This document shows, one piece after another, positions 10,320 to 29,294 of a stretch of DNA of 64,000 bases. The notes beneath the pieces were generated by a model, which saw only the letters and a list, made by a program, of their open reading frames with translations, was not told the origin of the DNA and ran no database searches. A program made the position numbers and the translations under genes. Each line of letters begins with the position of its first letter. Position 1 is the first letter of the stretch. The stretch is from Acidobacteriota bacterium (GTDB lineage: Bacteria > Acidobacteriota > Terriglobia > Terriglobales > SCQP01), in NCBI GenBank assembly GCA_021789895.1, contig JAJYIU010000008.1:62001-126000 (forward strand), written 5' to 3'.

Positions 10320-11753
10320 TTGACGTTTCGTTTTCAGGCAGCAGCCTTAATCGCCGGTGTCGGTCTGATTGCTTCCGGATTCCGTAATGGATCCGCGCCG
10401 CAACCGCCCAGCTTTGTTTTTATTGCAGCCCCGAGTTACGCCCCGCGAAATTTCACCCGCCGTTTCCCCGGCGGCAGCCGGCTCGAGCGATGGCAGCCGG
10501 GCAGATCGGAGCCGGTGGATCTGACGCCGGAATTCTACGCTGCCGCCGATCCCCAGGTATCGCCCAGCGGCAAGGAATTGCTTTTCGCCGCGATGCGGCG
10601 GCGCCGGGGGCATTGGCAGATCTGGCGCATGGCGGCGGCGGGGGGCGCGGCGCGGCAATTGACCCGCTGCGCCGCGGATTGCCAGCGCGCGGCCTGGCTG
10701 CCCGACGGACACATCGTGTACACCCTCAGCGGCGGGCGGGCAGCGCGGCTGGGCTCGCAGCTCTACCGAGCCCGCGCCGACGGCGCGCACCCCCATCCCA
10801 TCACCTTCGGTCCCGGCAATTTCCGCCTGGAAGCGGTGCTGCGCAGCGGGCGCCTGTTGGTCTCGGCCGCGGCGCCGCTCGACCGCCGCGCGGCGGCGGC
10901 ACCCACGCGCGCGCTCTATACGCTGCGTCCGGATGGTTCCACCTTGCGGCTGTTCCGCTGGCAATATCCGGCTCATGCGGCGCCCACCAGCGCGCGTGAG
11001 CTGCCGGATGGCACGGTGATTTTCGTCGCCCAGCCCTCCCGCCCCGCAGCCGGGCCGGCAGCCAAGATGGGCAAGCTGGCCTGGTTCCCGCCGCAGGCGG
11101 CGAGGGCGGCGCTGTTACCGGGAGCGAAGCCGGGCCTGGATTCGGTGCGGCTGCTCGATGGCCGCCGCTGGCTGCTGAGCGGCAGCGCGGCGACGTCCGG
11201 CTGCGCCATCTACATCTATGATTCGGCTGCGAAGGCGCTGGTGACGCGGGTTTATCAAGCGCCGCGCATGGCCTGCGCCCAGGCGACGCCGCTGGAGGCG
11301 CAGCCGGCGCCGTGGATTTATCACAGCATTCTGCATTTGCAAATGGCCAGCGGGCGGGTGGTCTGCCTCAACGCTTATCGTTCGACTTTAGCCCCCGGGG
11401 GAAGCTGGCGGCGCGGCCGGCTGGCGCAGGTGCGGGTGCTGGCGCTGCGCGGCGGCCGGAGGGTGACGCTGGGCGCGGCACCGGTCCAGCCGGATGGTTC
11501 CTTCTATCTCCGCCTGCCGGCGGATCTGCCGCTGAGCTTCGAGTTGCTCGACGCCCGCGGCGCGCTGGTGCAGGCGCAACGGAGTTGGTTCTGGCTGCGC
11601 CCGGGCGAAGACGCCGGCTGCCAGGGCTGCCATGAAAATCCGGCGCTGGCGCCGGTGAACCGCTGGCCGCTGGCGCTGAAGCGCCAGGCCGGCGCAATTG
11701 CACTCGGGCTGGGCCGTACCGCCTCCAACCGCGCCCCCATGAGGCCCCGATGA
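10320..11753 (+). CDS. Exported TolB-like propeller protein with C-terminal CxxCH heme motif; hydrazine synthase alpha-like (HzsA-related)
   Basis: Signal-like N-term, propeller-like repeats, C-terminal RSWFWLRPGEDAGCQGCHENPALAPVNRWPLAL. Apparent TTG start. Confidence 0.7.
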   Translation: MTFRFQAAALIAGVGLIASGFRNGSAPQPPSFVFIAAPSYAPRNFTRRFPGGSRLERWQPGRSEPVDLTPEFYAAADPQVSPSGKELLFAAMRRRRGHWQIWRMAAAGGAARQLTRCAADCQRAAWLPDGHIVYTLSGGRAARLGSQLYRARADGAHPHPITFGPGNFRLEAVLRSGRLLVSAAAPLDRRAAAAPTRALYTLRPDGSTLRLFRWQYPAHAAPTSARELPDGTVIFVAQPSRPAAGPAAKMGKLAWFPPQAARAALLPGAKPGLDSVRLLDGRRWLLSGSAATSGCAIYIYDSAAKALVTRVYQAPRMACAQATPLEAQPAPWIYHSILHLQMASGRVVCLNAYRSTLAPGGSWRRGRLAQVRVLALRGGRRVTLGAAPVQPDGSFYLRLPADLPLSFELLDARGALVQAQRSWFWLRPGEDAGCQGCHENPALAPVNRWPLALKRQAGAIALGLGRTASNRAPMRPR

Positions 11754-13441
11754 AACTTTCACGACGGCAACTGCTGGCCGGCGCCGCCGCCGGCGCCCCC
11801 TGGCTGGCGCTGCGCCGGCTGCCCCGGGCGCGCCCGCCCGCCGCGGCGACGCCGCAGTTTCTCGATGTCACCGCCCGCTCCGGTATACGCTTCCGCCATT
11901 CGTTCGGGGAAAAACAGCTCAATTCGATCCTGGAAGGCACCGGCTCGGGCTGCGCCTGGCTGGATTACAACAACGACGGCCTGCTCGATCTCTACGTCGT
12001 CAACGGACGCTATCTCGAGGGCGTCACCAATCATTCCGCGCCCGACGGCCGCGAGGCCACCAACCACCTCTACCGCAACAACGGCGACGGCACCTTCACC
12101 GACGTCACCCGCGAAGCCGGCGTGGGCGGCCGAGGCTTCGGCATCGGCGTGACCGTGGGCGACTTCGACAATGACGGCCGGCCCGATATTTTCGTCACCG
12201 GCTATCTGCAATCCGTCCTTTACCACAACAACGGCGACGGCACCTTCACCGACGTCACCCGCGAGGCGGGCGTGGAAAACCCGTTCTATGCCACCGGCGC
12301 GGCGTTTCTCGACTACAACCGCGACGGGCGGCTCGATCTCTTCATCGGCAATTATCTGCGCTTCGTGCCGAGCTACCGCAACTACTACCCCGGCGACAAC
12401 TATCCCGGCCCGCTCGACTACGAACCGGAATTCAACCGCCTGCTGCACAACAACGGCAATGGCACCTTCACCGACGTCTCGCGCGATTCCGGCATCGCGC
12501 GCGCGCCGGGGCGGGCGATGGGCGTCACCGCCGGCGATTACGACAACGATGGCTGGCCTGACATCTTCGTCGCCAACGACACCATGCCGAGCTTCCTCTA
12601 CCACAACAACCACGACGGCACCTTCACCAACGTGGCGATGGAGCAGAACGTCGCCTACGGGCAGAACGGCGAAGCGACCACGGCGATGGGGCCGGTGTTC
12701 GCCGATTTCTACAACGACGGCTGGCTCGATCTGTTTGTCTCCGACGCCAGCTTTCACCGCTTTTACCAGAATCAGCGCAGCCGCCGGCGCAGCTATTTCC
12801 TCGACCGCACCAACGAGTCGGGCATCGGGAAAGTTTGCGGCCAATATGTCGCCTGGGGCGACGGAGTATTCGATTTCGACAACGACGGCTGGAAAGACAT
12901 CTTCATCGGCGACGGCGGACTGGCCTGGGAAATCCCGATGAAGAGCATCCTGCTGCGCAACCGCGGCGGCGGCGAGTTTGAGCTGGCGCCGGCGGCGGCG
13001 GACAGCTTTTTCGCCCGGCGCGAGGTTTGCCGCGGCGCCTGCTTTGGCGATTTCAACAACGACGGCTACGTGGACGCGTTTCTGACCACGCTCGGCGGTC
13101 CTGGCATCCTGCTGCAAAACACCCCGCCGCCAGGTGCGCGGCGGCACTGGCTGATGGTCAAGCTGGAAGGCACGCGCAGCAACCGCGACGGCTATGGCAC
13201 GCGGCTGGAGGCGGTGGCGGGCGGGCGGAAGCAGACGGTGGAGGTGGTCTCGGCCTCCGGCTATCTGTCGCAATCCGATCCCCGGCCGCACTTCGGGCTG
13301 GGCGAACGCACGCAGGTGGACCAGTTGACGCTGCGCTGGCCGAGCGGCGCGGTGCAGGTGCTGAAGAATATCCCCGCCGACCAGATCCTGCACGTCAAAG
13401 AACCCGGCGCGGCCGCTCCGGCGCGGAAGGAGACGCGATGA
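11750..13441 (+). CDS. CRTAC1-family FG-GAP/VCBS repeat protein with C-terminal ASPIC/UnbV-like domain, Tat-type signal
   Basis: MKLSRRQLLAGAAAG twin-arginine motif; repeated DFDNDGRPDIFVTGY / NNGDGTFTDVTREAGV; C-term VEVVSASGYLSQSDPRPHFGLGERTQVDQLTLRWPSG. Confidence 0.9.
   Translation: MKLSRRQLLAGAAAGAPWLALRRLPRARPPAAATPQFLDVTARSGIRFRHSFGEKQLNSILEGTGSGCAWLDYNNDGLLDLYVVNGRYLEGVTNHSAPDGREATNHLYRNNGDGTFTDVTREAGVGGRGFGIGVTVGDFDNDGRPDIFVTGYLQSVLYHNNGDGTFTDVTREAGVENPFYATGAAFLDYNRDGRLDLFIGNYLRFVPSYRNYYPGDNYPGPLDYEPEFNRLLHNNGNGTFTDVSRDSGIARAPGRAMGVTAGDYDNDGWPDIFVANDTMPSFLYHNNHDGTFTNVAMEQNVAYGQNGEATTAMGPVFADFYNDGWLDLFVSDASFHRFYQNQRSRRRSYFLDRTNESGIGKVCGQYVAWGDGVFDFDNDGWKDIFIGDGGLAWEIPMKSILLRNRGGGEFELAPAAADSFFARREVCRGACFGDFNNDGYVDAFLTTLGGPGILLQNTPPPGARRHWLMVKLEGTRSNRDGYGTRLEAVAGGRKQTVEVVSASGYLSQSDPRPHFGLGERTQVDQLTLRWPSGAVQVLKNIPADQILHVKEPGAAAPARKETR
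12076..12264 (+). repeat. Two copies of a 39-nt identical repeat (12076-12114 and 12226-12264), spaced 150 nt, in-frame within the FG-GAP protein
   Basis: caacaacggcgacggcaccttcaccgacgtcacccgcga seen at both positions; degenerate further copies near 12448 and 12605. Confidence 0.85.
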
Positions 13442-15372
13442 CGCCTCGGCTCCAGCGCGAAGGCGGCAAGAAAGCCGCACTGCGGCGCGCGCTCTGGGTC
13501 GCCCTGGCCATTGCCGCGGTCGCAGCCACCCTGGCGATGCGCGGCCCGCGGCATGAGGCCCGCGATTGGGCTGCGGTTTATTCCCGCCGGCGCTATTACG
13601 ATCCGGTGGATTTGAAGCTGTCGCCGCATGGCCGTCGCCTTTACGTTGCCTGCGAAGGCCGCAATGAGGTGCTCGCCATCAACACCGCCAGCCGCCGCGT
13701 GATTGCCGCGATTCCGGTCGGACGTCGGCCCAAGGCGCTGGCGCTTTCGCCCGGCGGACGGCGCCTGTTTGTGGCCAATGCCTGGTCCGGCGCCATCAGC
13801 CAGATTGACACGCGCGCGCTGCAGGTGACGCGCACGCTGCCCGCCGGCTGGGGCGTAGAAGGGATGGCGGCCGACCGCACCGGCCATTACCTCTACGCCG
13901 CCAACCCGCTCGGCAACGATATCTCGGTCATAGACCTGGCGAGCGGCCGGGAAACCACCCGCCTGGCCGCCGGCCATTTCCCCGAATTTGCGGCCCGCCT
14001 GCGCGGCAGCTGGATCGGCATCTCCAACCTGCTGGCGCAGCCGGCGCCGCCCGACACGCCGCCGTCGAGCCAGTTGACCCTGATCAACGCCGCGACCCGG
14101 CAGGTGCGCTGGCAAGTGGCGATTCCCGGCGCCGTGCAGATGCGCCATATCGCCCAGACCCCACCCCGTTTCGGCGGCTACCTGCTGATCCCCTTCCTGC
14201 AGCCGCACAACCTCATCCCGCTGATCGAATTGCGCCGGGATTGGTATGCCTCCAACGGGCTGGCTATCGTCCAGTTACGCGGCCGGCGGGCGCCGCGGGT
14301 GCGGGAAGTGCTGCTGGACGAACTCGACCGCGCCTTTGCCAACGGTTACGGCGCGGCCGTGGCGCCGCACACGCCCTGGGCGCTGATCACCGCCTCCGGC
14401 GCCAACCAGGTTGCGATCTTGAACCTCGAGCGGCTGCATCGCCTGCTGCAGTCGCCGGATGCAGATGAGCTGGCGCGGCGGCTGGATGCGGCGCCGCAGT
14501 TCGTGGCGCGGCGGCTGCCCACCGGCCGCGACCCTACCGCGGTGGCGGCTTCGCCCAACGGCCATTTCGCCTATGTCGCCAACCGCGCCGACGACACCAT
14601 CAGTGTGATTGACCTCGCGGGGCTGCGCAACGCCGGCCTCATCCGGCTGGGAGCGCAGCGCCCCCTCACCGCCCGGCGCCGCGGCCAGCAGCTCTTTTTC
14701 AGCGCCCTGCATTCGCAGGATCACGAGATTGCCTGCGCCAGTTGCCATCCCTACGAAGGCTTCGAAGACGGGTTGGTGTGGAGTTTCGAGACCCCGCGGC
14801 TGGGGCGCGACGTCGTCGAAAACAAAACCTTGTTGGCGATTCGCGGCACCTCGCCGTTCAAATGGAACGGGCTGAATCCGAACCTGGCGACGCAAGACGG
14901 GCCGCGCACCGCGATGTATATCTTCCGCTCCCAGGGTTTCAGCCCCGTCCAGGTCAGAGACCTGGTGGCGTTTATCAACGCCCGCCCGCTGCCGCCCAAC
15001 CCCCATCTCGCCCCCGGCGGGCTGAACCCGGAGCAGGCGCGCGGGCGCGCGCTGTTTTTCCGTACCCGCACCAACACGGGCCAGATCATTCCGCTGCACG
15101 ACCGCTGCTACTACTGCCACGCGCCGCTCACCCATTTCACCTCGCGGGTGCTGATGAACGTCGGCACCGCCACCCGGTTCGACGATACTGGAGCGTTCAA
15201 GGTGCCCTCGCTGGAAGGCATCTACATGCGCCCGCCCTACCTCCATAACGGCGAGGCGCAGACACTCGAGGAAATCTGGACCCGCTTCAATCCCCGCGAT
15301 CGGCACGGCATTACCTCCGACATGAACAAGGTGCAGTTGAACGAGCTGATCGCGTACCTGGACACGTTATGA
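13438..15372 (+). CDS. YVTN beta-propeller protein fused to a C-terminal diheme cytochrome c peroxidase/MauG-like domain
   Basis: KLSPHGRRLYVACEGRNEVLAIN, GHFAYVANRADDTISVID repeats; CASCHP and CYYCHA heme motifs; C-term VPSLEGIYMRPPYLHNGEAQTLEEI. ATGA overlap with the previous gene. Confidence 0.88.
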   Translation: MTPRLQREGGKKAALRRALWVALAIAAVAATLAMRGPRHEARDWAAVYSRRRYYDPVDLKLSPHGRRLYVACEGRNEVLAINTASRRVIAAIPVGRRPKALALSPGGRRLFVANAWSGAISQIDTRALQVTRTLPAGWGVEGMAADRTGHYLYAANPLGNDISVIDLASGRETTRLAAGHFPEFAARLRGSWIGISNLLAQPAPPDTPPSSQLTLINAATRQVRWQVAIPGAVQMRHIAQTPPRFGGYLLIPFLQPHNLIPLIELRRDWYASNGLAIVQLRGRRAPRVREVLLDELDRAFANGYGAAVAPHTPWALITASGANQVAILNLERLHRLLQSPDADELARRLDAAPQFVARRLPTGRDPTAVAASPNGHFAYVANRADDTISVIDLAGLRNAGLIRLGAQRPLTARRRGQQLFFSALHSQDHEIACASCHPYEGFEDGLVWSFETPRLGRDVVENKTLLAIRGTSPFKWNGLNPNLATQDGPRTAMYIFRSQGFSPVQVRDLVAFINARPLPPNPHLAPGGLNPEQARGRALFFRTRTNTGQIIPLHDRCYYCHAPLTHFTSRVLMNVGTATRFDDTGAFKVPSLEGIYMRPPYLHNGEAQTLEEIWTRFNPRDRHGITSDMNKVQLNELIAYLDTL

Positions 15373-16613
15373 AACCGCATCTTCCCAGCGTGGCGGCGCG
15401 CACAATTTCCCCGCGGGCGGCGGCGCGGCTGCGCGTCGGGCTGTTGGCTTTCACCCTGCTGGCGGCCGCCGCGGCCGCCCAAACGCCCCCACTCTACTCC
15501 CGCTGGATCAACTACACCCCCGCCAACGGCTTCCCCCGCGGCGAAGTGTACTGCGTGGCGATCGCTGGCCCGCGCGTCTGGGCGGGAACCGAGCATGGGC
15601 TGGCGCTGATCGAAAACGGACGGCTGCGCAAGGTCTTCACCCGCGCCGACGGCCTGGCCGCCTACGCCATCATGTCGCTGGCGGTGGATCCCAACACCGG
15701 CGATCTCTGGATTGGCGGGCTGGGCGGGTTGAGCCGGTATTCGGCGGGCAAGTTCATCAACTATACGGTGCTGTCGAGCGGGCTGGCGAACGATTTGGTC
15801 TACAGCGTGGCCGTGCGCGGCAAATACGTCTGGGCGGCGACCGCCGCCGGCGTCAGCCGGCTGAACACCTGGACGCATAGCTGGCGCATTTTCAGCGTCG
15901 TCGGCAAGCCCAGCGCTCCCTTCGAGGAGCCCTGGGCCTACGCGCTGGCGATCGGGCCGAAAAAGGCCTACATCGGGCTCTGGGGCGGCGGGGTGGTGGT
16001 TTACGATCTGCGCCGGAAGACCTGGCGCCCTTATCTTGATCCGGACGGCGCGCCGGAAATCGTGCTCTACCGCAATCAGGGGCTGATCAGCAATATGGTC
16101 AGCAGCCTGACCCACGGCGCGGAATCGAACGCCTTCTGGGCGGGTACTTACTTCGGCCTAAGCGGCTACGACGGCGCGCGCTGGCACAACTACATGCGCC
16201 AGGACAGCGGGCTGGCTTCCAATTTCATCAACGGCGTCGCCCTTCAGGGGCGCCGGGTCTGGGCGGCGACGCAGCGCGGCCTGTCGGAATTCGATCCCGG
16301 CGCCCGCGTCTGGGTCACCTATCGGCCGGCCAACTGGCGGGCGCTCGACGCCGGCAAAGCCGCGCGGCCGCAGCGCGGCGAAATCCTCATCACCGGCCCC
16401 GGCGGCCATCCGCGCCGGCTCGAAACCGCGACTTCGCTGGCGCACAACTATATCCTCAACCTCGCCTTTCAAGGCAACGACATCTGGGTAGCCACTGCCG
16501 CCGGCCTGAGCCACGGCTTTGCCGCCCCCGCAAGGAGAATCCTTTATGCCCATCCGAACCGAGTCCACCGCCATCCTGCCCGCGCCGCATACGCTCGCCA
16601 AACACGCCATTAG
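15369..16613 (+). CDS. Exported two-component-regulator-propeller-like (ligand_gated beta-propeller) protein
   Basis: Signal peptide, repeated VWAGTEHGLALIENG / LWIGGLGGLSRYSAG / VWAATAAGVSRLN / VWAATQRGLSEFD; ATGA overlap with the previous gene. Confidence 0.75.
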   Translation: MKPHLPSVAARTISPRAAARLRVGLLAFTLLAAAAAAQTPPLYSRWINYTPANGFPRGEVYCVAIAGPRVWAGTEHGLALIENGRLRKVFTRADGLAAYAIMSLAVDPNTGDLWIGGLGGLSRYSAGKFINYTVLSSGLANDLVYSVAVRGKYVWAATAAGVSRLNTWTHSWRIFSVVGKPSAPFEEPWAYALAIGPKKAYIGLWGGGVVVYDLRRKTWRPYLDPDGAPEIVLYRNQGLISNMVSSLTHGAESNAFWAGTYFGLSGYDGARWHNYMRQDSGLASNFINGVALQGRRVWAATQRGLSEFDPGARVWVTYRPANWRALDAGKAARPQRGEILITGPGGHPRRLETATSLAHNYILNLAFQGNDIWVATAAGLSHGFAAPARRILYAHPNRVHRHPARAAYARQTRH

Positions 16614-17040
16614 CGCGCCCGAGGTGCTGAACGAGGCCTACTGCTACGCCAAGCCGTCTTCGTTCTCGCGCGGCCTGCGAATCAACCTCAAGGGCATTAC
16701 CTTCCTGTTCATCTCTGGCACCGCCAGCGTGGATGAAAACGGGCGCAGCCTGCATGCGGGCGATTTCCGCGCCCAAACCTGGCGCACTTACGAAAACATC
16801 ACCGCGCTGCTCGAAGCCGAAGGCGCCGGCTGGAAAGACATCGTACGCACCACCTGCTACCTGCGCGATATCGAGCGCGATTACGCCGCCTTCAACGAGA
16901 TCCGCACGGAATTTTTCCAGCGCCAGGGGCTGGACCCGCTGCCCGCCTCGACCGGCATCCAGGCGATTTTGTGCCGTCCCGAGTTGCTGATCGAGATGGA
17001 AGCGATCGCGATCTTCGACAGCGGCGGCGAAGAGCGCTAG
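16546..17040 (+). CDS. RidA/YjgF-fold protein resembling the C-terminal domain of chorismatases (FkbO/Hyg5/XanB2 type)
   Basis: FLFISGTASVDENGRSLHAGDFRAQTWRTYENI ... DIVRTTCYLRDIERDYAAFNEIRTEFF ... ASTGIQAILCRPELLIEMEAIAIF; RBS aaggagaa upstream; 68-nt overlap with the previous gene. Confidence 0.8.
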   Translation: MPIRTESTAILPAPHTLAKHAISAPEVLNEAYCYAKPSSFSRGLRINLKGITFLFISGTASVDENGRSLHAGDFRAQTWRTYENITALLEAEGAGWKDIVRTTCYLRDIERDYAAFNEIRTEFFQRQGLDPLPASTGIQAILCRPELLIEMEAIAIFDSGGEER

Positions 17041-17093
17041 GTGTCTGCCGCGGCGGCGGCCCATGAGCGCCGCGCGGGGGGCCGGGAGGCGGT

Positions 17094-18038
17094 ATGCAGA
17101 TTGCCGGAAAGCTCGAAATCGAAGACCTGCCGCGGGTCTGTCCGCTGCTCAGCCGGGCGGTCAATCCGGCCTACGGCCGTCATGGCCGGCTGGCGGTTAC
17201 CGTCGCCGGGGTGACTTTCGGCGGCCGCCGCCCGGTGGTGATTGCGGGGCCGTGCGCGGTGGAGAACCGGGCGCAAACGCTGGCCCTGGCGCAGGCGGCG
17301 CGCGCCGCCGGCGCGGCTATGTTGCGCGGCGGGGCCTACAAGCCGCGCACCTCGCCCCACGACTTCCAGGGCCTGGGGCTGGACGGGCTGAAGATTCTGC
17401 GCGAGGCCGGCGATCTCACCGGGCTGCCGGTGGTGACCGAGGTGATTGACGTGCGCCTGGTGGAAACCGTGGCGCAGTATGCCGACATGCTCCAGATCGG
17501 CTCGCGCAGCATGCAGAATTATCCGCTGCTGGTGGAGGCGGGGCGCGCCGGCAAGCCGGTGCTGCTCAAGCGCGGCATGGCTGCCAGCCTGTGCGAGTGG
17601 CTGGGCGCGGCGGAATACATTGCGCTTGAAGGCAACCTGCAAATCGTGCTCTGTGAGCGCGGCATCCGGGCGCACTCCGCCGGAGAATATTCGCGCTTCA
17701 CTCTCGATCTGAACGTGATTCCGGCGGTGCGGGAAGCCGCCTTCCTGCCGGTCATCGTGGATCCGAGTCACGCCACCGGCATCTCCGCGCGGGTCGAGCC
17801 GGCCAGCCGCGCCGCCCTTGAAGCCGGCAGCGACGGGCTGATCGTCGAAATTGCGCTGCCGCAATCCGCTTGCCGGCCGCTCTGCGATGCCGGCCAGGCG
17901 ATCTCGCCCGCCACCCTGAGCCGCATCACCGCGTTCGCCGAGCGCCGCACGGCAGCGATGGAATCCGAAACGGATTGCGTGGAAAGCGAACTGGCGGCGG
18001 TGGGAGCGGAAAGCGAATCCGCGGGAGCGCGCCAATGA
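17094..18038 (+). CDS. 3-deoxy-7-phosphoheptulonate (DAHP) synthase, type I
   Basis: VVIAGPCAVENRAQTLALAQAARAAGAAMLRGGAYKPRTSPHDFQGLGLDGLKIL, DMLQIGSRSMQNYPLL, PVLLKRGMAASLCEWLGAAEYI, VIVDPSHATG. Confidence 0.93.
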   Translation: MQIAGKLEIEDLPRVCPLLSRAVNPAYGRHGRLAVTVAGVTFGGRRPVVIAGPCAVENRAQTLALAQAARAAGAAMLRGGAYKPRTSPHDFQGLGLDGLKILREAGDLTGLPVVTEVIDVRLVETVAQYADMLQIGSRSMQNYPLLVEAGRAGKPVLLKRGMAASLCEWLGAAEYIALEGNLQIVLCERGIRAHSAGEYSRFTLDLNVIPAVREAAFLPVIVDPSHATGISARVEPASRAALEAGSDGLIVEIALPQSACRPLCDAGQAISPATLSRITAFAERRTAAMESETDCVESELAAVGAESESAGARQ

Positions 18039-19441
18039 ATTTTCCCCAAACCAGCGCGCCCTCGAGGCCGGGTATGAATTGGAAACTCACTCTCTTGGCC
18101 GGCTTGACGGCCGCGCTGCTGGCCGCGCCCATGGCGGCGCAAGCCCCCGGCTGTCCTTCCGGCCCTTCTCCGACACGCGCCGCGAGGATGCGTTATGCCG
18201 ATATGCCGTCGCGGGCATTTCCTTTCGGCAGCTTCATCCAGCCGTACGCGCTTTGGTTCACCACTCCCGACTCGCTGGCCTTCGACGGCAGCGGGCGCGC
18301 GCGTCCCGACGCCGATTGGCGCCGGCTGCGCGCCATCAACCTGGGCTTTTTGGGCCCGCTCGATCCGCAGTACTCCGAGTCGGTTTACGGCATCGCCATG
18401 CTGCACGGCGCCGAGCTGGCGCTGGCGCGGGCCAACGCCCGCGGCGGCTTCCACGGCAAGCCGTTCGCGCTCAAGATTCACCGCGATTCGCCCTTGTGGG
18501 GCGCCTCGGCGATCGAGCTGGTTCGCATGGACTACCGCCAGCATGTTTGGGCCATGCTGGGTTCGGTGGACGGCGCCTCGACCCATATCGCGCTGCGCGC
18601 CACGCTGAAGCTTTGGGTGCCCATCGTGGATACCGCCACCACCGATCCCACCGTCACTGAAACCCGCATCCCCTGGCTGCTGCACGATTTTCCCGACGAC
18701 CGCCAGCAAGGCTATGCGCTGGCCGACTACATATTCAACCAACTGCACCTGAAACACGTGGCGATTCTGCGCGCCAACAATCGCTATGGCCGCCTCGGCT
18801 ACACCGTCTTTTTCAATACCGCTCGGCGCTGGGGAAAGCAGCCGGTGATGGTGTTGAAATTCGAGCCGTATGCCACCGGTTTCACCCGCTCCTTGCGCGA
18901 GTTGCAGCAATTGGGCATGGACGGCCTGGTGTTGTGGTGCAATGCCCGGCAGGCGGGCTTGATCGTGCGGCAGATGCGCGCCCTGGGGATGCGCCAGCCG
19001 GTGTTCGGCCCCAGCCGCCTCACCTATCCCGCCCTGATTCAAACCGCGGGCGTGGCCGCCAACGGCGTGGTGACGGTCGCGGCCATCAACCCCGACCGCC
19101 GCGATCCGAAATGGCTGGCCTTCCGCCGCCGCTACCGCGCGCGCTATCACGCCGACCCCGACGCCTATGCCGCTTACGCCTACGACGGCATGAACCTGCT
19201 GATCGCGGCGGTGCGCCAGGCCGGGCTCAATCGCACGCGCATCATGGATGCGCTGCACGCCTACGCGATGCGCTCGTATGCGGGCGTCAGCGGCACGGCG
19301 TTTTTCGATTACACCCTGAATAACATCGCGCCGGTGACCATGGCGCGGGTGGAACACGGCCATTTCGTCTATTGGCCCGAGCGCCGCAGCGACTGGAGCC
19401 GTCGCGGCTGGCCGGGCTGCACCGCGGCGGCCGGGCGGTAA
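18035..19441 (+). CDS. ABC-type branched-chain amino acid/urea-like periplasmic binding protein (Peripla_BP_6)
   Basis: Signal peptide MNWKLTLLAGLTAALLAAPMAAQ; NLGFLGPLDPQYSESVYGIAMLHGAELALARANARGG; YGRLGYTVFFN; ATGA overlap. Confidence 0.8.
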   Translation: MNFPQTSAPSRPGMNWKLTLLAGLTAALLAAPMAAQAPGCPSGPSPTRAARMRYADMPSRAFPFGSFIQPYALWFTTPDSLAFDGSGRARPDADWRRLRAINLGFLGPLDPQYSESVYGIAMLHGAELALARANARGGFHGKPFALKIHRDSPLWGASAIELVRMDYRQHVWAMLGSVDGASTHIALRATLKLWVPIVDTATTDPTVTETRIPWLLHDFPDDRQQGYALADYIFNQLHLKHVAILRANNRYGRLGYTVFFNTARRWGKQPVMVLKFEPYATGFTRSLRELQQLGMDGLVLWCNARQAGLIVRQMRALGMRQPVFGPSRLTYPALIQTAGVAANGVVTVAAINPDRRDPKWLAFRRRYRARYHADPDAYAAYAYDGMNLLIAAVRQAGLNRTRIMDALHAYAMRSYAGVSGTAFFDYTLNNIAPVTMARVEHGHFVYWPERRSDWSRRGWPGCTAAAGR

Positions 19442-19450
19442 TAGAGCTCT

Positions 19451-20731
19451 ATGCCGGCGTTCATCCATCCCCGCTTCGCTCTCGCCACGATGCTGCTATG
19501 GCTGCTGGCGGGAACCGCGCCCGCGCGCGCTCAGGTCCGGCCCCGGGCCGCAGCCGGGCCCTATGCCGCGATCGCCACACGCGGCACGCATTTTGACGGC
19601 GTCGGGCGGAATGCCGCCTACAATCTGCGCGGGCAAAGGCCCTGCATCGCGCTGTGGCTGCCCATGCGCGGGCCGGATCAAGCCGCCAGCCTGGCCATTT
19701 TAGCCGCCGCCCGGCTGGCGATCGCCGACGCCGGACGGGCTCGCGGCGCAGGCGCCCGGATTCCGGTGCTGGCGATTGCCGACGCCGGCGGGCCGGCCTG
19801 GGGGCGCGCCGACGACCGCCTGCTGCAGCTCGTCTTCGCGCGCCATGCCGTCGCCCTGCTCACCAATACCAACGGCAATCTCGCTCATCTCGGCCTGCAA
19901 GTGAGCAACAAGATCGGCCTGCCGGTGCTGACCTTAGCCGGCGATCCGGCCACTACCGCGATCAACATGCCCTGGATCTTCCGGCTCGCGCCCAGCGACC
20001 GGATGCAGGCGCGCATGCTGGCGCGCGTCCTCTACCGCCGGCGCGGCCTGCGCCGGGTGCTGCTGGCGGCGGAAGACGATCAGGACGGCCGCGCCGGGCT
20101 ACGCGCTTTCCAAGCCGCGGCCCGCCGGCTGGGCGCGGCGGCGGCGGTCTTCCGTTTCCATCCGCTGCAAGCCGCCGCCGCCCGATCGGCACTCGTCCGC
20201 GCGCTGCGCGCCCGCCGGGCGCAGGCGGCCGTGCTGTGGGCGCAGCCGGCGGAAGCCGGCCACTTGCTGCGCGCGATACTCCAGGCCGGCTTGCGGCTGC
20301 CGGTATTTCTGCCGCAGATGGCGGCGCAGCCGGAGGCCGGGCTGAATTTTTCGCCGCCCGCGGGCGAACCCGCTCCGGAAATTTACACCCTGGCCGGCGC
20401 GGCCCGCCACTCCGCCCGCGATCGTTTCGCGCGGCGTTTTCGCCAGGCGTGCGGCTTCGCTCCCAACCCCGTCGCCCTGGAAGCTTACGACGCGGTGCGG
20501 CTGCTGGCGGACTCGATCCGCCAGGCCGGAGCGAACCGGGCGCGGGTGCGCGACCGCCTCGCCGCAACCCGAAATTATGCCGGCGTTTCCGGCGCCGTCA
20601 ACTTCGACAATCGCGGCGACAACATCAGCGCCGTACACCTGGTGCGGGTCGGGCTCTCCGCCGCGCGCGCACCGCAAAACGCGCCAACGAGTTTCCGTTT
20701 ACCCGGGAAAGGCAGGCAGCTATGCCGTTAA
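19451..20731 (+). CDS. Second type I periplasmic binding protein (Peripla_BP_6-like)
   Basis: Signal peptide; LPMRGPDQAASLAILAAARLAIADAGRARGAGARIPVL; VALEAYDAVRLLADSIRQAGANRARVRDRLAATRNYAGVSGAVNFDNRGDN. Confidence 0.75.
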   Translation: MPAFIHPRFALATMLLWLLAGTAPARAQVRPRAAAGPYAAIATRGTHFDGVGRNAAYNLRGQRPCIALWLPMRGPDQAASLAILAAARLAIADAGRARGAGARIPVLAIADAGGPAWGRADDRLLQLVFARHAVALLTNTNGNLAHLGLQVSNKIGLPVLTLAGDPATTAINMPWIFRLAPSDRMQARMLARVLYRRRGLRRVLLAAEDDQDGRAGLRAFQAAARRLGAAAAVFRFHPLQAAAARSALVRALRARRAQAAVLWAQPAEAGHLLRAILQAGLRLPVFLPQMAAQPEAGLNFSPPAGEPAPEIYTLAGAARHSARDRFARRFRQACGFAPNPVALEAYDAVRLLADSIRQAGANRARVRDRLAATRNYAGVSGAVNFDNRGDNISAVHLVRVGLSAARAPQNAPTSFRLPGKGRQLCR

Positions 20732-22413
20732 ATTCTGAAATCTACGATGCCATCATCGTCGGCTCCGGCGCCGGCGGCGGCATGGCCGCCTACGCGCTCA
20801 CCCAAGCCGGCGCCCGCTGCCTGATGCTCGAAGCCGGCGGCGCCTACGACGCCGCCCGCGATTCCAAGTGGCTGGAATGGCAATACGACGCGCCCTACCA
20901 CGGCGGCGGCTGCGAAAACAAATTCGATTATTTCCTCGCCGCCGTCGGCGGCTGGCAGGTGCCGGGCGAGCCCTATCTCACCGCGCGGGGAGAAAATTTC
21001 CTGTGGTTCCGCTCGCGCATGCTGGGCGGGCGCACCAATTCCTGGGGACGGATTTCGCTGCGCAACGGCCCCTACGATTTCCAGCCCCGCAGCCGCGACG
21101 GCCAAGGCTTCGACTGGCCGATCCGCTATGAAGAGCTGGCGCCGTACTATGCCAAAACCGAAAATCTGATCGGGGTGTTCGGCTCGAAAGCCGGGATCGA
21201 AAACCTGCCCGACGGCGATTATCTGCCGCCGCCGGCGCCGCGCTGCTATGAGCGGCTGGTCGCGAACGCCTGCGGCAAGCTGCACATCCCCTGCATCCCC
21301 TCGCGCCTGGCCATCCTCACCCGCGCGCACCGCGGCCGTCCCGCCTGCCATTATGTAGCGCAATGCGGGCGCTGCTGCCGCCTGGGCTCGAATTTTTCCT
21401 CGCCGGTGGTGCTGCTGGAGCCGGCGCGCGCCACCGGCAAGCTGGAAATCCGTCTCAATGCGATGGCGCGGGAAGTGCTTACCCGGCCGGACGGCCGCGC
21501 CGCCGGCGTCGCCTACATTGACAAAACGACCCGCCAGGAAGTGCAGGCGCGCGCGCGGGTGGTGGTGCTGGCGGCCAGCTCGTGCGAAACCGCCCGCCTG
21601 CTGCTCAACTCGCGCAGCTCGCGCTCACCCGACGGGCTGGCCAACCGCAGCGGGCTGGTGGGACGCTACCTGATGGATACGGTGATGAGCGACGTCACCG
21701 GCTATTTCCCCGCGCTCGCCGGCCTGCCGCCGCACAACGAAGACGGCGTCGGCGGCATGCACATGTACATGCCCTGGTGGAACTACGGCCGCGAGCGCCA
21801 AAACCTGCCCTTTTCGCGCGGCTACCACATCGAGTTTTACGGCGGCCGCTCCGGCATGCCCATGCCCGGCGTGCTGAGCGGCACGGAACGACTCACCGGC
21901 GGCGGCTATGGCGCGAGCTTGAAGCAAGCCTGCCGCAGCCTCTTCGGCAGCTTCGTGCACTTTGCCGGGCGCGGCGAAATGATTCCCAACGCGAACAGCT
22001 ATTGCGAGCTCGACCCCGCCACGCTCGACCAGTGGGGCATACCGGTGCTGCGCTTCCATTTCCAATGGGGCGAGGAAGAGCTGCAGATGGCGCGCCACAT
22101 GCAAACCACCTTCCGCGAAATTGTCGCCGCCGGAGGCGGGCAGGTGGTGGCCTCGGCCGGTGCGGACGAGCAGTGGGGGATTTCGACCGGCGGGCAGGGG
22201 ATCCACGAAGTCGGCGGCGCGCGCATGGGCGGCGATCCCAAGCAGTCGGTGCTCAATTCGCATTGCCAGGCCTGGGACTGCAAAAACCTGTTCATCGCCG
22301 ACGGGGCGCCGTTCGTCAGCCTGGCGGACAAGAACCCAACTCTGACCATCATGGCGCTGGCCTGGCGGACCTCGGATTACATCGCCGAGCAAATGCGCCA
22401 GGGCAGCCTCTGA
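20722..22413 (+). CDS. GMC-family FAD-dependent oxidoreductase (gluconate/glucose dehydrogenase large-subunit type) with Cys-rich segment
   Basis: YDAIIVGSGAGGGMAAYALTQAGARCLMLEAGG; ACHYVAQCGRCCRLGSNF; C-terminal NLFIADGAPFVSLADKNPTLTIMALAWRTSDYI. Confidence 0.92.
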   Translation: MPLNSEIYDAIIVGSGAGGGMAAYALTQAGARCLMLEAGGAYDAARDSKWLEWQYDAPYHGGGCENKFDYFLAAVGGWQVPGEPYLTARGENFLWFRSRMLGGRTNSWGRISLRNGPYDFQPRSRDGQGFDWPIRYEELAPYYAKTENLIGVFGSKAGIENLPDGDYLPPPAPRCYERLVANACGKLHIPCIPSRLAILTRAHRGRPACHYVAQCGRCCRLGSNFSSPVVLLEPARATGKLEIRLNAMAREVLTRPDGRAAGVAYIDKTTRQEVQARARVVVLAASSCETARLLLNSRSSRSPDGLANRSGLVGRYLMDTVMSDVTGYFPALAGLPPHNEDGVGGMHMYMPWWNYGRERQNLPFSRGYHIEFYGGRSGMPMPGVLSGTERLTGGGYGASLKQACRSLFGSFVHFAGRGEMIPNANSYCELDPATLDQWGIPVLRFHFQWGEEELQMARHMQTTFREIVAAGGGQVVASAGADEQWGISTGGQGIHEVGGARMGGDPKQSVLNSHCQAWDCKNLFIADGAPFVSLADKNPTLTIMALAWRTSDYIAEQMRQGSL

Positions 22414-22437
22414 GCCGCATACCCGGGGAGGGAACCC

Positions 22438-23049
22438 ATGAAGAAGCCAACTCCGTCGGACCGCCTGCGCTGGCAACGGCGCGACCTGCTGCGAATCGCC
22501 GCCGGCCTGCCCGCGGCCGCGCTGGCCGGCGCACCGCGCGCGGCCGCCGCGCCGGCGCCGGTTTCAGCGCCTCCCGGCAGCCCGGCCCCAGCCCATCCGC
22601 GCGTGCTGAACCCGCACGAATGGCGGACGCTACGCCTGTTAGCCGACTGGATCCTGCCCGCCGACGCGATCTCGGGCAGCGCCGGCGAGGCCGCCGTGCC
22701 CGAATTCATTGACGATTGGCTCAGACTGAAACGCGGCCTGCTGCCCGATCAAATCCGCGGCGGCCTGGTCTGGCTCGACCTGCAATGCCGGCGCGCCTAT
22801 GGCCGCCGCTTCGCCGGCTGCTCGCGCGCGCAGCAGCAGCGCATGCTCGACCGCATTGCCTACCCTGCCAAGGCTGCGCCCGGCGACGCTCCCGGCGTGG
22901 AGTTCTTCAACCGGCTGCGCGACCTGGTGGTGAGCGGGTTCTATACCAGCCGCATGGGGGTGCGCGATCTGCCCTACCTCGGCAATGAGCCGCAAAGCGC
23001 CTGGAACGGCTGCCCGCCGGCGGTGGTCGCCCGTCTCAAGCTGGATTAA
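22438..23049 (+). CDS. Gluconate 2-dehydrogenase subunit 3-family protein, Tat-type signal
   Basis: WQRRDLLRIAAGLPAAALAG; LNPHEWRTLRLLADWILPADAISGSAGEAAVPEFIDDWL; C-term FYTSRMGVRDLPYLGNEP. Confidence 0.85.
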   Translation: MKKPTPSDRLRWQRRDLLRIAAGLPAAALAGAPRAAAAPAPVSAPPGSPAPAHPRVLNPHEWRTLRLLADWILPADAISGSAGEAAVPEFIDDWLRLKRGLLPDQIRGGLVWLDLQCRRAYGRRFAGCSRAQQQRMLDRIAYPAKAAPGDAPGVEFFNRLRDLVVSGFYTSRMGVRDLPYLGNEPQSAWNGCPPAVVARLKLD

Positions 23050-28598: not shown

Positions 28599-29294
28599 CT
28601 ATAAATAATTCCGCTTAACGTGAGAATTCGATTTGGATGCAACTTTATCATGGCTGGCATCCCACGCCAAACAATCTAATGCTATTGCGGGTACTCTGGC
28701 TTTTCTCGTAATCGATCTGATGCGCATTTGAAATTCATTGTATATCTGACGATTCTTGATAAAACTCATAGTGGCGCTTGACGGGATATTACCGATTTTT
28801 GATCCTTTGCAGTTTGCAATGGCCTGAATAGTATATTTGTCAAGGGGAACTTCTAAAAAGTGGACAATTCGAAGAAATCTCGGTTCTGAAATTCCATTAA
28901 AGAGGCAAAGTCGCTTCGCTAATAAGTTTGGTAACTTTAGGGATGGACCGAACGGTATGTCCTTTTGCATCCGGCGTCTCCAATATCTTCTAAAGTCATC
29001 GCTTATTTGATCTAACCAAATTGAATAATCATTCTGCGAACTAATGTGTTTGAAATTTTCCAGTCTACTATTTTTTAATATTTTAAGCGCCCAAGTGCGA
29101 AATACTTTAGATGGTGCACTTGGCGAGTTACGAAAGGCTCTGAAAGTATTCCCTCCGATTGAGTGATAAATGATTGTTTCCAGGGTTGATTTGCGTTCGC
29201 TATAACGTTCAAGTTTGAACCACGCCAGCCAGGGATATTCTCGCAACGCGAGCACAAGCTCTTTCTCACAAGTGTAACGGCGAAGCTTTGGCAT
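28599..29294 (-). CDS. Hypothetical protein of unknown family in an AT-rich island
   Basis: 231 aa ORF in clearly lower-GC sequence; codon usage rich in AAA/ATT/AGA/TTT, unlike flanking genes. Confidence 0.6.
   Translation of the reverse strand: MPKLRRYTCEKELVLALREYPWLAWFKLERYSERKSTLETIIYHSIGGNTFRAFRNSPSAPSKVFRTWALKILKNSRLENFKHISSQNDYSIWLDQISDDFRRYWRRRMQKDIPFGPSLKLPNLLAKRLCLFNGISEPRFLRIVHFLEVPLDKYTIQAIANCKGSKIGNIPSSATMSFIKNRQIYNEFQMRIRSITRKARVPAIALDCLAWDASHDKVASKSNSHVKRNYL

Follow-up and report, generated by a model that had tools for sequence, protein, structure and literature searches.

A hydrazine-synthase-like heme module and its link to a chorismatase-like RidA protein and a DAHP synthase in Acidobacteriota

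Introduction

Why would genes for exported heme and propeller proteins share what may be one transcript with two genes that point to the shikimate pathway? This question is raised by a ten-gene block at positions 10320-23049 of a 64,000-nucleotide stretch of an Acidobacteriota bacterium genome (hereafter the window), which forms part of a 3.75-Mb assembly of 79 contigs with 95.5% completeness. An initial annotation had described the block as an exported redox and propeller module tied to the shikimate pathway through a RidA-fold protein and a DAHP synthase, a description that we uphold, and such a module recurs in distant genomes of the phylum. It had also misread the core of the block, overlooking that genes 1 and 3 are homologues of the hydrazine synthase (HZS) alpha subunit and of an HZS beta-gamma fusion. 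Here, we analyze this HZS-like module, the RidA protein that accompanies it, and the readings that could account for their association.

Results

Genes 1 to 3 form a hydrazine-synthase-like module

The HZS homologues flank a CRTAC1 gene at the start of the block. Gene 1 (10320..11753, on the plus strand like all ten genes, with a TTG start codon in the window's list of open reading frames (ORFs)) combines a TolB-like propeller with the HZS alpha middle domain (PF18582, 3e-19) and a single heme motif (CQGCH, residue 434), and its first match among solved structures is HZS alpha (5c2v_A, 9e-14). Gene 2 (11750..13441) encodes a CRTAC1-type FG-GAP/UnbV_ASPIC protein (PF13517, 5e-56; PF07593, 3e-22) with a Tat-like signal. 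Gene 3 (13438..15372) encodes a YVTN propeller fused to a domain with two heme motifs (CASCH at 433 and CYYCH at 557) and matches the beta-gamma fusion model NF052342 (1.5e-36); among solved structures a YVTN surface-layer propeller comes first, followed by HZS beta (5c2v_B, 3e-27) and gamma (5c2v_C, 4e-14). Genes 1 and 3 both score under the NCBIfam cut-offs of the true subunits. Homologues of alpha, beta and gamma are nevertheless encoded side by side, as they would be for a hydrazine synthase.

Active-site residues of HZS were looked for in both proteins. The gene 1 protein ends 39 residues past its sole heme motif, and heme alphaII is therefore missing. Downstream of the alphaI CxxCH, a Tyr ligand equivalent to HZS Tyr591 was found neither in gene 1 nor in the relatives listed. 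In gene 3, the position of HZS gamma His144 is occupied by Trp (PFKWNG) and no Cys stands at the position of gamma Cys165. The P(F/Y)xW motif is present in 44 of the 46 relatives whose corresponding heme could be located, and the Cys is variable among lineages. Because these active-site residues are missing, the module is not a hydrazine synthase, and a true hydrazine synthase was rejected as a candidate on all four points (Tyr591, heme alphaII, gamma His144 and gamma Cys165). The predicted di-heme site of gene 3 is of the CCP/MauG type.

A single-domain RidA protein carries both chorismatase half-sites

Gene 5 (16546..17040) encodes a protein of 164 amino acids with one RidA domain, compared with two domains per chain in the FkbO/Hyg5 chorismatases. 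We compared it with a set of true two-domain chorismatases from Acidobacteriota, using half-site positions of our own choosing. In these chorismatases the N-terminal domain carries the motifs R...Y..F..R and PAxSxxG, and the C-terminal domain carries SPSFARA, SGTAS and CRxELLxEIE. The single-domain RidA proteins hold both sets, whereas in a further group of proteins, composed of three fused RidA domains, domain analysis placed the N-half only in domain 2 and the C-half only in domain 3 (L146:377-1570 and L196:7359-8513 on the minus strand, and L198:7344-8507 on the plus strand). At C-half positions, mean identity to the window protein was 1.00 for the single-domain proteins, 0.95 for both chorismatase C domains and domain 3 of the triple proteins, 0.32 for RidA paralogues and at most 0.08 for chorismatase N domains and triple domain 2. 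At N-half positions the corresponding values were 0.97 for the single-domain proteins, 0.86 for triple domain 2, 0.56 for chorismatase N domains and 0.23 for RidA paralogues (a set that includes one protein, at L019, that is probably itself multi-domain).

Individual residues follow the same pattern. Hyg5 positions E334, Cys327, Gly240 and Gly173 are all matched in gene 5, by E150, C143, G58 and G137, respectively; E150 aligns with the catalytic Glu334, and G58 and G137 align with the CH-II glycines listed for chorismatases (PMC7170507). At the alignment column of C143, Hyg5 (5ag3) has Cys, 5a3k has Ser and FkbO has Ala. The SGTAS, C143-R144 and F40/R42 motifs of gene 5 are those of chorismatase C domains. 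The column of the deaminase Arg105 holds Ser135 in the window, and every operon RidA protein examined has Ser there.

Trees and structure models extend the comparison to the triple proteins. Chorismatase C domains group with triple domain 3 (support 97/97), and one triple protein, in its AlphaFold model (mean pLDDT 90), had chorismatases as its best PDB matches over the full length (E 2e-20, TM 0.58-0.73), far ahead of RidA. For the single-domain model, Foldseek placed RutC/RidA on top with zero chorismatases among the top 50 matches, as is expected of one domain, and the single-domain fold by itself is thus non-discriminating. Together, the residues and their partition between domains suggest that gene 5 likely has chorismatase activity, and the triple proteins may be covalent trimers and evolutionary intermediates.

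A DAHP synthase recruited repeatedly beside RidA

The next gene, gene 6 (17094..18038), encodes a DAHP synthase that scores above the TIGR01361 cut-off (306 versus 267.75 bits). It has no N-terminal FL regulatory domain, in contrast to the copy on contig C54 of the same genome, which has that domain and is itself adjoined by a YVTN-type gene (L175:7728-9945). Pairs of RidA and DAHP synthase genes also occur away from the module, at six loci (L174, L196, L207, L208, L209 and L211). In a quick tree of unknown root, the RidA-linked DAHP synthases form one group of 23 members and two more, of 10 and 4, that lie among housekeeping copies. These three groups suggest that DAHP synthase was recruited beside RidA repeatedly, about three times, and they speak against a single travelling paralogue.

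The module and the RidA protein occur together across Acidobacteriota

A scan of 84,980 species genomes returned 403 relatives, of which the best 80 loci were used for counting; all are Acidobacteriota records except one titled Arcobacter. The gene-neighbourhood comparison proposed in the initial annotation bore out the recurrence of the block, as at least five of its genes lie together in ~47 of these 80 loci of other genomes and also in other families of the phylum, which places the block far beyond chance. Although many loci are cut by contig ends, Reg_prop was present in 49, HzsBC in 46, CRTAC1 and the first binding protein in 45 each, and HzsA in 39. DAHP synthase was present in 22, at variable positions. 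The GMC oxidoreductase (12 loci) and its subunit 3 partner (10 loci) were found only in close relatives of the window. Thus, the conserved unit comprises genes 1-5, 7 and 8, while of the ten-gene extent originally proposed the DAHP synthase is mobile and the GMC pair, once placed at the core, is a lineage-specific addition.

The position of RidA relative to the module varies. Among 60 relatives, 12 genomes (counting that of the window) hold an operon-type RidA of at least 68% identity, separated by a sharp gap from paralogues of ~40% or less, and the loci of those relatives show the module with Reg_prop on one side of RidA and the first binding protein on the other, G014 and G047 excepted. Among the 80 loci, RidA may lie within the module, precede HzsA (L080, L093, L117) or follow the binding proteins (L079, L088, L124), and L095 and L108 have it in divergent orientation to a longer HZS alpha/beta-gamma pair without a CRTAC1 gene. 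The Arcobacter record (L088, DYJN01000003.1) is a public metagenome-assembled genome whose module is arranged as in the Acidobacteriota loci L079 and L124, and it is probably mislabelled. At the module borders, no further apparently linked gene family was found in at least four loci with a simple gene caller that misses genes.

To measure this association, we used a sample of 297 Acidobacteriota genomes in which the module was recognized through HzsA, as a PF18582 match with syntenic relatives. The module was present in 15 of these genomes, 11 of which carry the single-domain RidA, and the remaining four (G125, G198, G242 and G249) encode the triple form, with three RidA domains fused. One or the other form was thus found in 15/15 genomes with the module versus 16/282 others (Fisher p=5e-17, ignoring relatedness), and a rough count at the family level, which also ignores relatedness, gave p 1e-8. 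The link between the RidA cassette and the module within Acidobacteriota is well supported.

Away from the module, no single obligate partner of RidA was found in the RidA-only loci, where the neighbours are 2OG-Fe(II) oxygenases, CRTAC1, PSD1/DUF1501 and heme-TPR proteins. Besides the HZS-like module, RidA has a further type of secreted heme partner, a one-heme PD40-TPR protein of 761-776 amino acids (heme motif CANCH), encoded beside RidA or RidA-DAHP synthase at L198:8528-10855, L207:3738-6020 and L211:8935-11217. Other neighbours of the cassette are an eight-heme TPR protein (L200) and PSCyt2/PSD1 with DUF1501 (L199, L206). Several of these off-module partners share a secreted heme or cytochrome-like character, a pattern seen post hoc and with no background rate. 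Five RidA loci without the module (L053, L061, L067, L072 and L089) have a common neighbour family, the two scanned members of which are 2OG-Fe(II) oxygenases.

Layout and remaining genes of the block

All ten consecutive plus-strand ORFs of the initial annotation are present, as are the four ATGA overlaps (11750/11753, 13438/13441, 15369/15372 and 18035/18038), the longer overlaps at 16546/16613 (68 nt, between genes 4 and 5) and 20722/20731, and the gaps of 9-53 nt, and it is plausible that the genes lie on one putative transcript. Gene 4 (15369..16613) encodes an exported Reg_prop propeller (PF07494, 4e-9). Genes 7 (18035..19441; PF13458, 3e-36) and 8 (19451..20731; PF13458, 1e-29) encode orphan periplasmic binding proteins of the Leu/Ile/Val type that are paralogues, with cross-hits to each other, and none of the ORFs of the block encodes a permease or ATPase for them. 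Gene 9 (20722..22413) encodes the GMC oxidoreductase (PF05199, 2e-23) and gene 10 (22438..23049) a gluconate 2-dehydrogenase subunit 3-like protein (PF13618, 2e-26).

Export signals were judged by eye from the translations. As had been claimed, seven products look exported and two bear Tat-like motifs: signal or anchor segments are visible in genes 1, 3, 4, 7 and 8, and RR motifs in genes 2 (SRRQLLAG) and 10 (QRRDLLRIAAG). No signal of its own was seen by eye in gene 9, whose product could be exported together with that of gene 10, and the RidA and DAHP synthase proteins look cytoplasmic. An analogy drawn earlier to PQQ-alcohol-dehydrogenase loci was dropped because TIGR03863 (17.7 versus 413.6 bits) and TIGR03866 (87.2 versus 287.3 bits) lie far below cut-off. 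Outside the block, a 231-amino-acid ORF with zero Pfam matches (28599-29294, minus strand) looks like a recent acquisition; GC is 0.535 at 28-30 kb, and mostly 0.62-0.70 in the window.

Discussion

A proposed coupling of aromatic supply to an exported heme complex

The reading that we favor, tentatively and at somewhat short of an even chance, is that the operon joins an aromatic-supply cassette in the cytoplasm (DAHP synthase and chorismatase-like RidA) to an exported HZS-like heme complex of the CCP/MauG type. Judging from its family and domain make-up, the extra DAHP synthase without a regulatory domain would in all probability send more flux to chorismate. The single-domain RidA may form a trimer whose subunit interfaces rebuild the chorismatase site, as its residues, the domain partition of its relatives and its gene context suggest, and would convert chorismate to a hydroxybenzoate-type acid and pyruvate; given the Hyg5-like residues of the protein, 3-hydroxybenzoate would be a likelier product than the FkbO diene. 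The acid would then leave the cytoplasm and could serve the periplasmic HzsA-like, HzsBC-like, CRTAC1 and Reg_prop proteins as substrate, electron mediator or cofactor precursor, with the two binding proteins perhaps binding the acid or its oxidized product. In this lineage, the GMC dehydrogenase, if exported with its Tat-signal partner, may provide a further entry for electrons.

Several observations weigh against this coupling. Gene 5 scores 60 bits with general RidA models versus 26.7 bits with the chorismatase model TIGR04444 (cut-off 325), the chorismatase N domains are only moderately identical to it at the N-half positions, and ordinary RidA proteins have E150 and G58 as well, so that only part of the signature discriminates. 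DAHP synthase is missing from many module loci, and ~30 of the 80 RidA loci have no module nearby and have mixed neighbours. The weakest step is that the HZS-like complex and the binding proteins would use the product, for which the aromatic would have to reach the periplasm and meet the heme proteins.

Other explanations draw on the same evidence. The HZS-like complex might act on an unrelated periplasmic substrate such as H2O2 or a nitrogen compound, with the RidA/DAHP synthase aromatic a signal or building block that is merely co-regulated. We consider this rather unlikely but worth serious attention: both cassette genes are also found where the module is missing and next to other secreted proteins, and DAHP synthase is not constant in module loci, but one of the two RidA forms is present in every module genome of the sample, and several arrangements place RidA in the module or adjoining it. 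It is improbable that RidA is an ordinary Rid protein clearing reactive imines or enamines while DAHP synthase feeds general aromatic amino acid supply. The Rid family is indeed the best general match of gene 5 and its single-domain model fits RidA/RutC folds, yet the Ser in place of Arg105 and the chorismatase C-domain motifs speak against this role, and the genome already has other DAHP synthase and RidA-like copies.

A GMC-centred block, as the initial annotation implied, with accessory propellers in periplasmic sugar or alcohol oxidation, appears very improbable. The GMC and subunit 3 families are genuine, the adjoining genes encoding GMC_oxred and Gluconate_2-dh3 domains, and loci that have GMC conserve it well, at 71-85% identity; however, the pair is confined to near relatives, and the module occurs in other families without either gene. 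A role of the module in nitrogen coupling, be it as a true hydrazine synthase or as a different enzyme, is barely credible, as the adjacency of the HZS subunit homologues and their best PDB matches are offset by the missing alphaI Tyr, alphaII heme, gamma His144 and gamma Cys165, and Hagglund et al. conclude likewise for their homologues in the text consulted (PMC12758564).

The proposed coupling of chorismate supply to heme complex invites a broader and doubtful generalization: that non-anammox HZS relatives are exported heme complexes dependent on a chorismate-derived aromatic acid from a dedicated single-domain homotrimeric chorismatase, whose RidA form would be close to the ancestral state that gave rise to two-domain chorismatases when it was duplicated and its active site divided. 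The non-anammox HZS relatives bear on the origin of anammox chemistry, and the tight link to a chorismate-related cassette offers a concrete chemical lead on their role. It also suggests a route from a trimeric RidA protein to two-domain chorismatases, and a possible role for the RidA variant without the deaminase arginine that is widespread in Acidobacteriota.

Comparison with known systems

In comparison to anammox HZS (PDB 5c2v), the module shares the alpha and beta-gamma architecture, propellers and c-type hemes, and differs in the missing heme ligands and key residues, in its reversed gene order and in its shikimate-linked cassette. Closer counterparts are described in the text of Hagglund et al. 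(December 2025; PMC12758564) that we consulted, in which HZS alpha-like and fused beta-gamma-like genes are co-located with a CRTAC1 gene between them and two ABC substrate-binding genes downstream, in clades I-III from Planctomycetota, Syntrophobacter and Paludibaculum. The window shares with the clade II clusters, as this text describes them, the order alpha-CRTAC1-betagamma, a short alpha without heme alphaII, two hemes in beta-gamma, Trp at the His144 position and two downstream binding-protein genes; its layout thus appears to fit clade II by gene order and features, rather than by tree placement. The view that no locus of this make-up had been described therefore gives way for these parts and holds for RidA, DAHP synthase and GMC, none of which the running text of that paper mentions (figures and supplements lie outside this check); Reg_prop likewise goes unmentioned there.

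Gene 5 resembles the FkbO/Hyg5 chorismatases (4bps, 5ag3, 5a3k; TIGR04444) in holding both half signatures, including the Hyg5-type Cys, Glu and Gly, and its triple version is structurally closest to them; it differs in having one RidA domain instead of two and in scoring far under the family cut-off, and for gene 5 itself the likeness is known from sequence. The triple proteins resemble 3x-RidA, in which three fused RidA domains presumably form a covalent trimer, and the operon proteins resemble the ~10% of RidA proteins with Ser at the Arg105 position (PMC4433059). In contrast to those, the domains here are specialized with chorismatase-type half-sites and linked to DAHP synthase and secreted heme proteins. 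The window thus holds a variant of a type of cluster that was described only recently, with the RidA/DAHP synthase component as its new, strong and testable part, with a single-domain RidA that combines the half-site signatures which chorismatases split over two domains.

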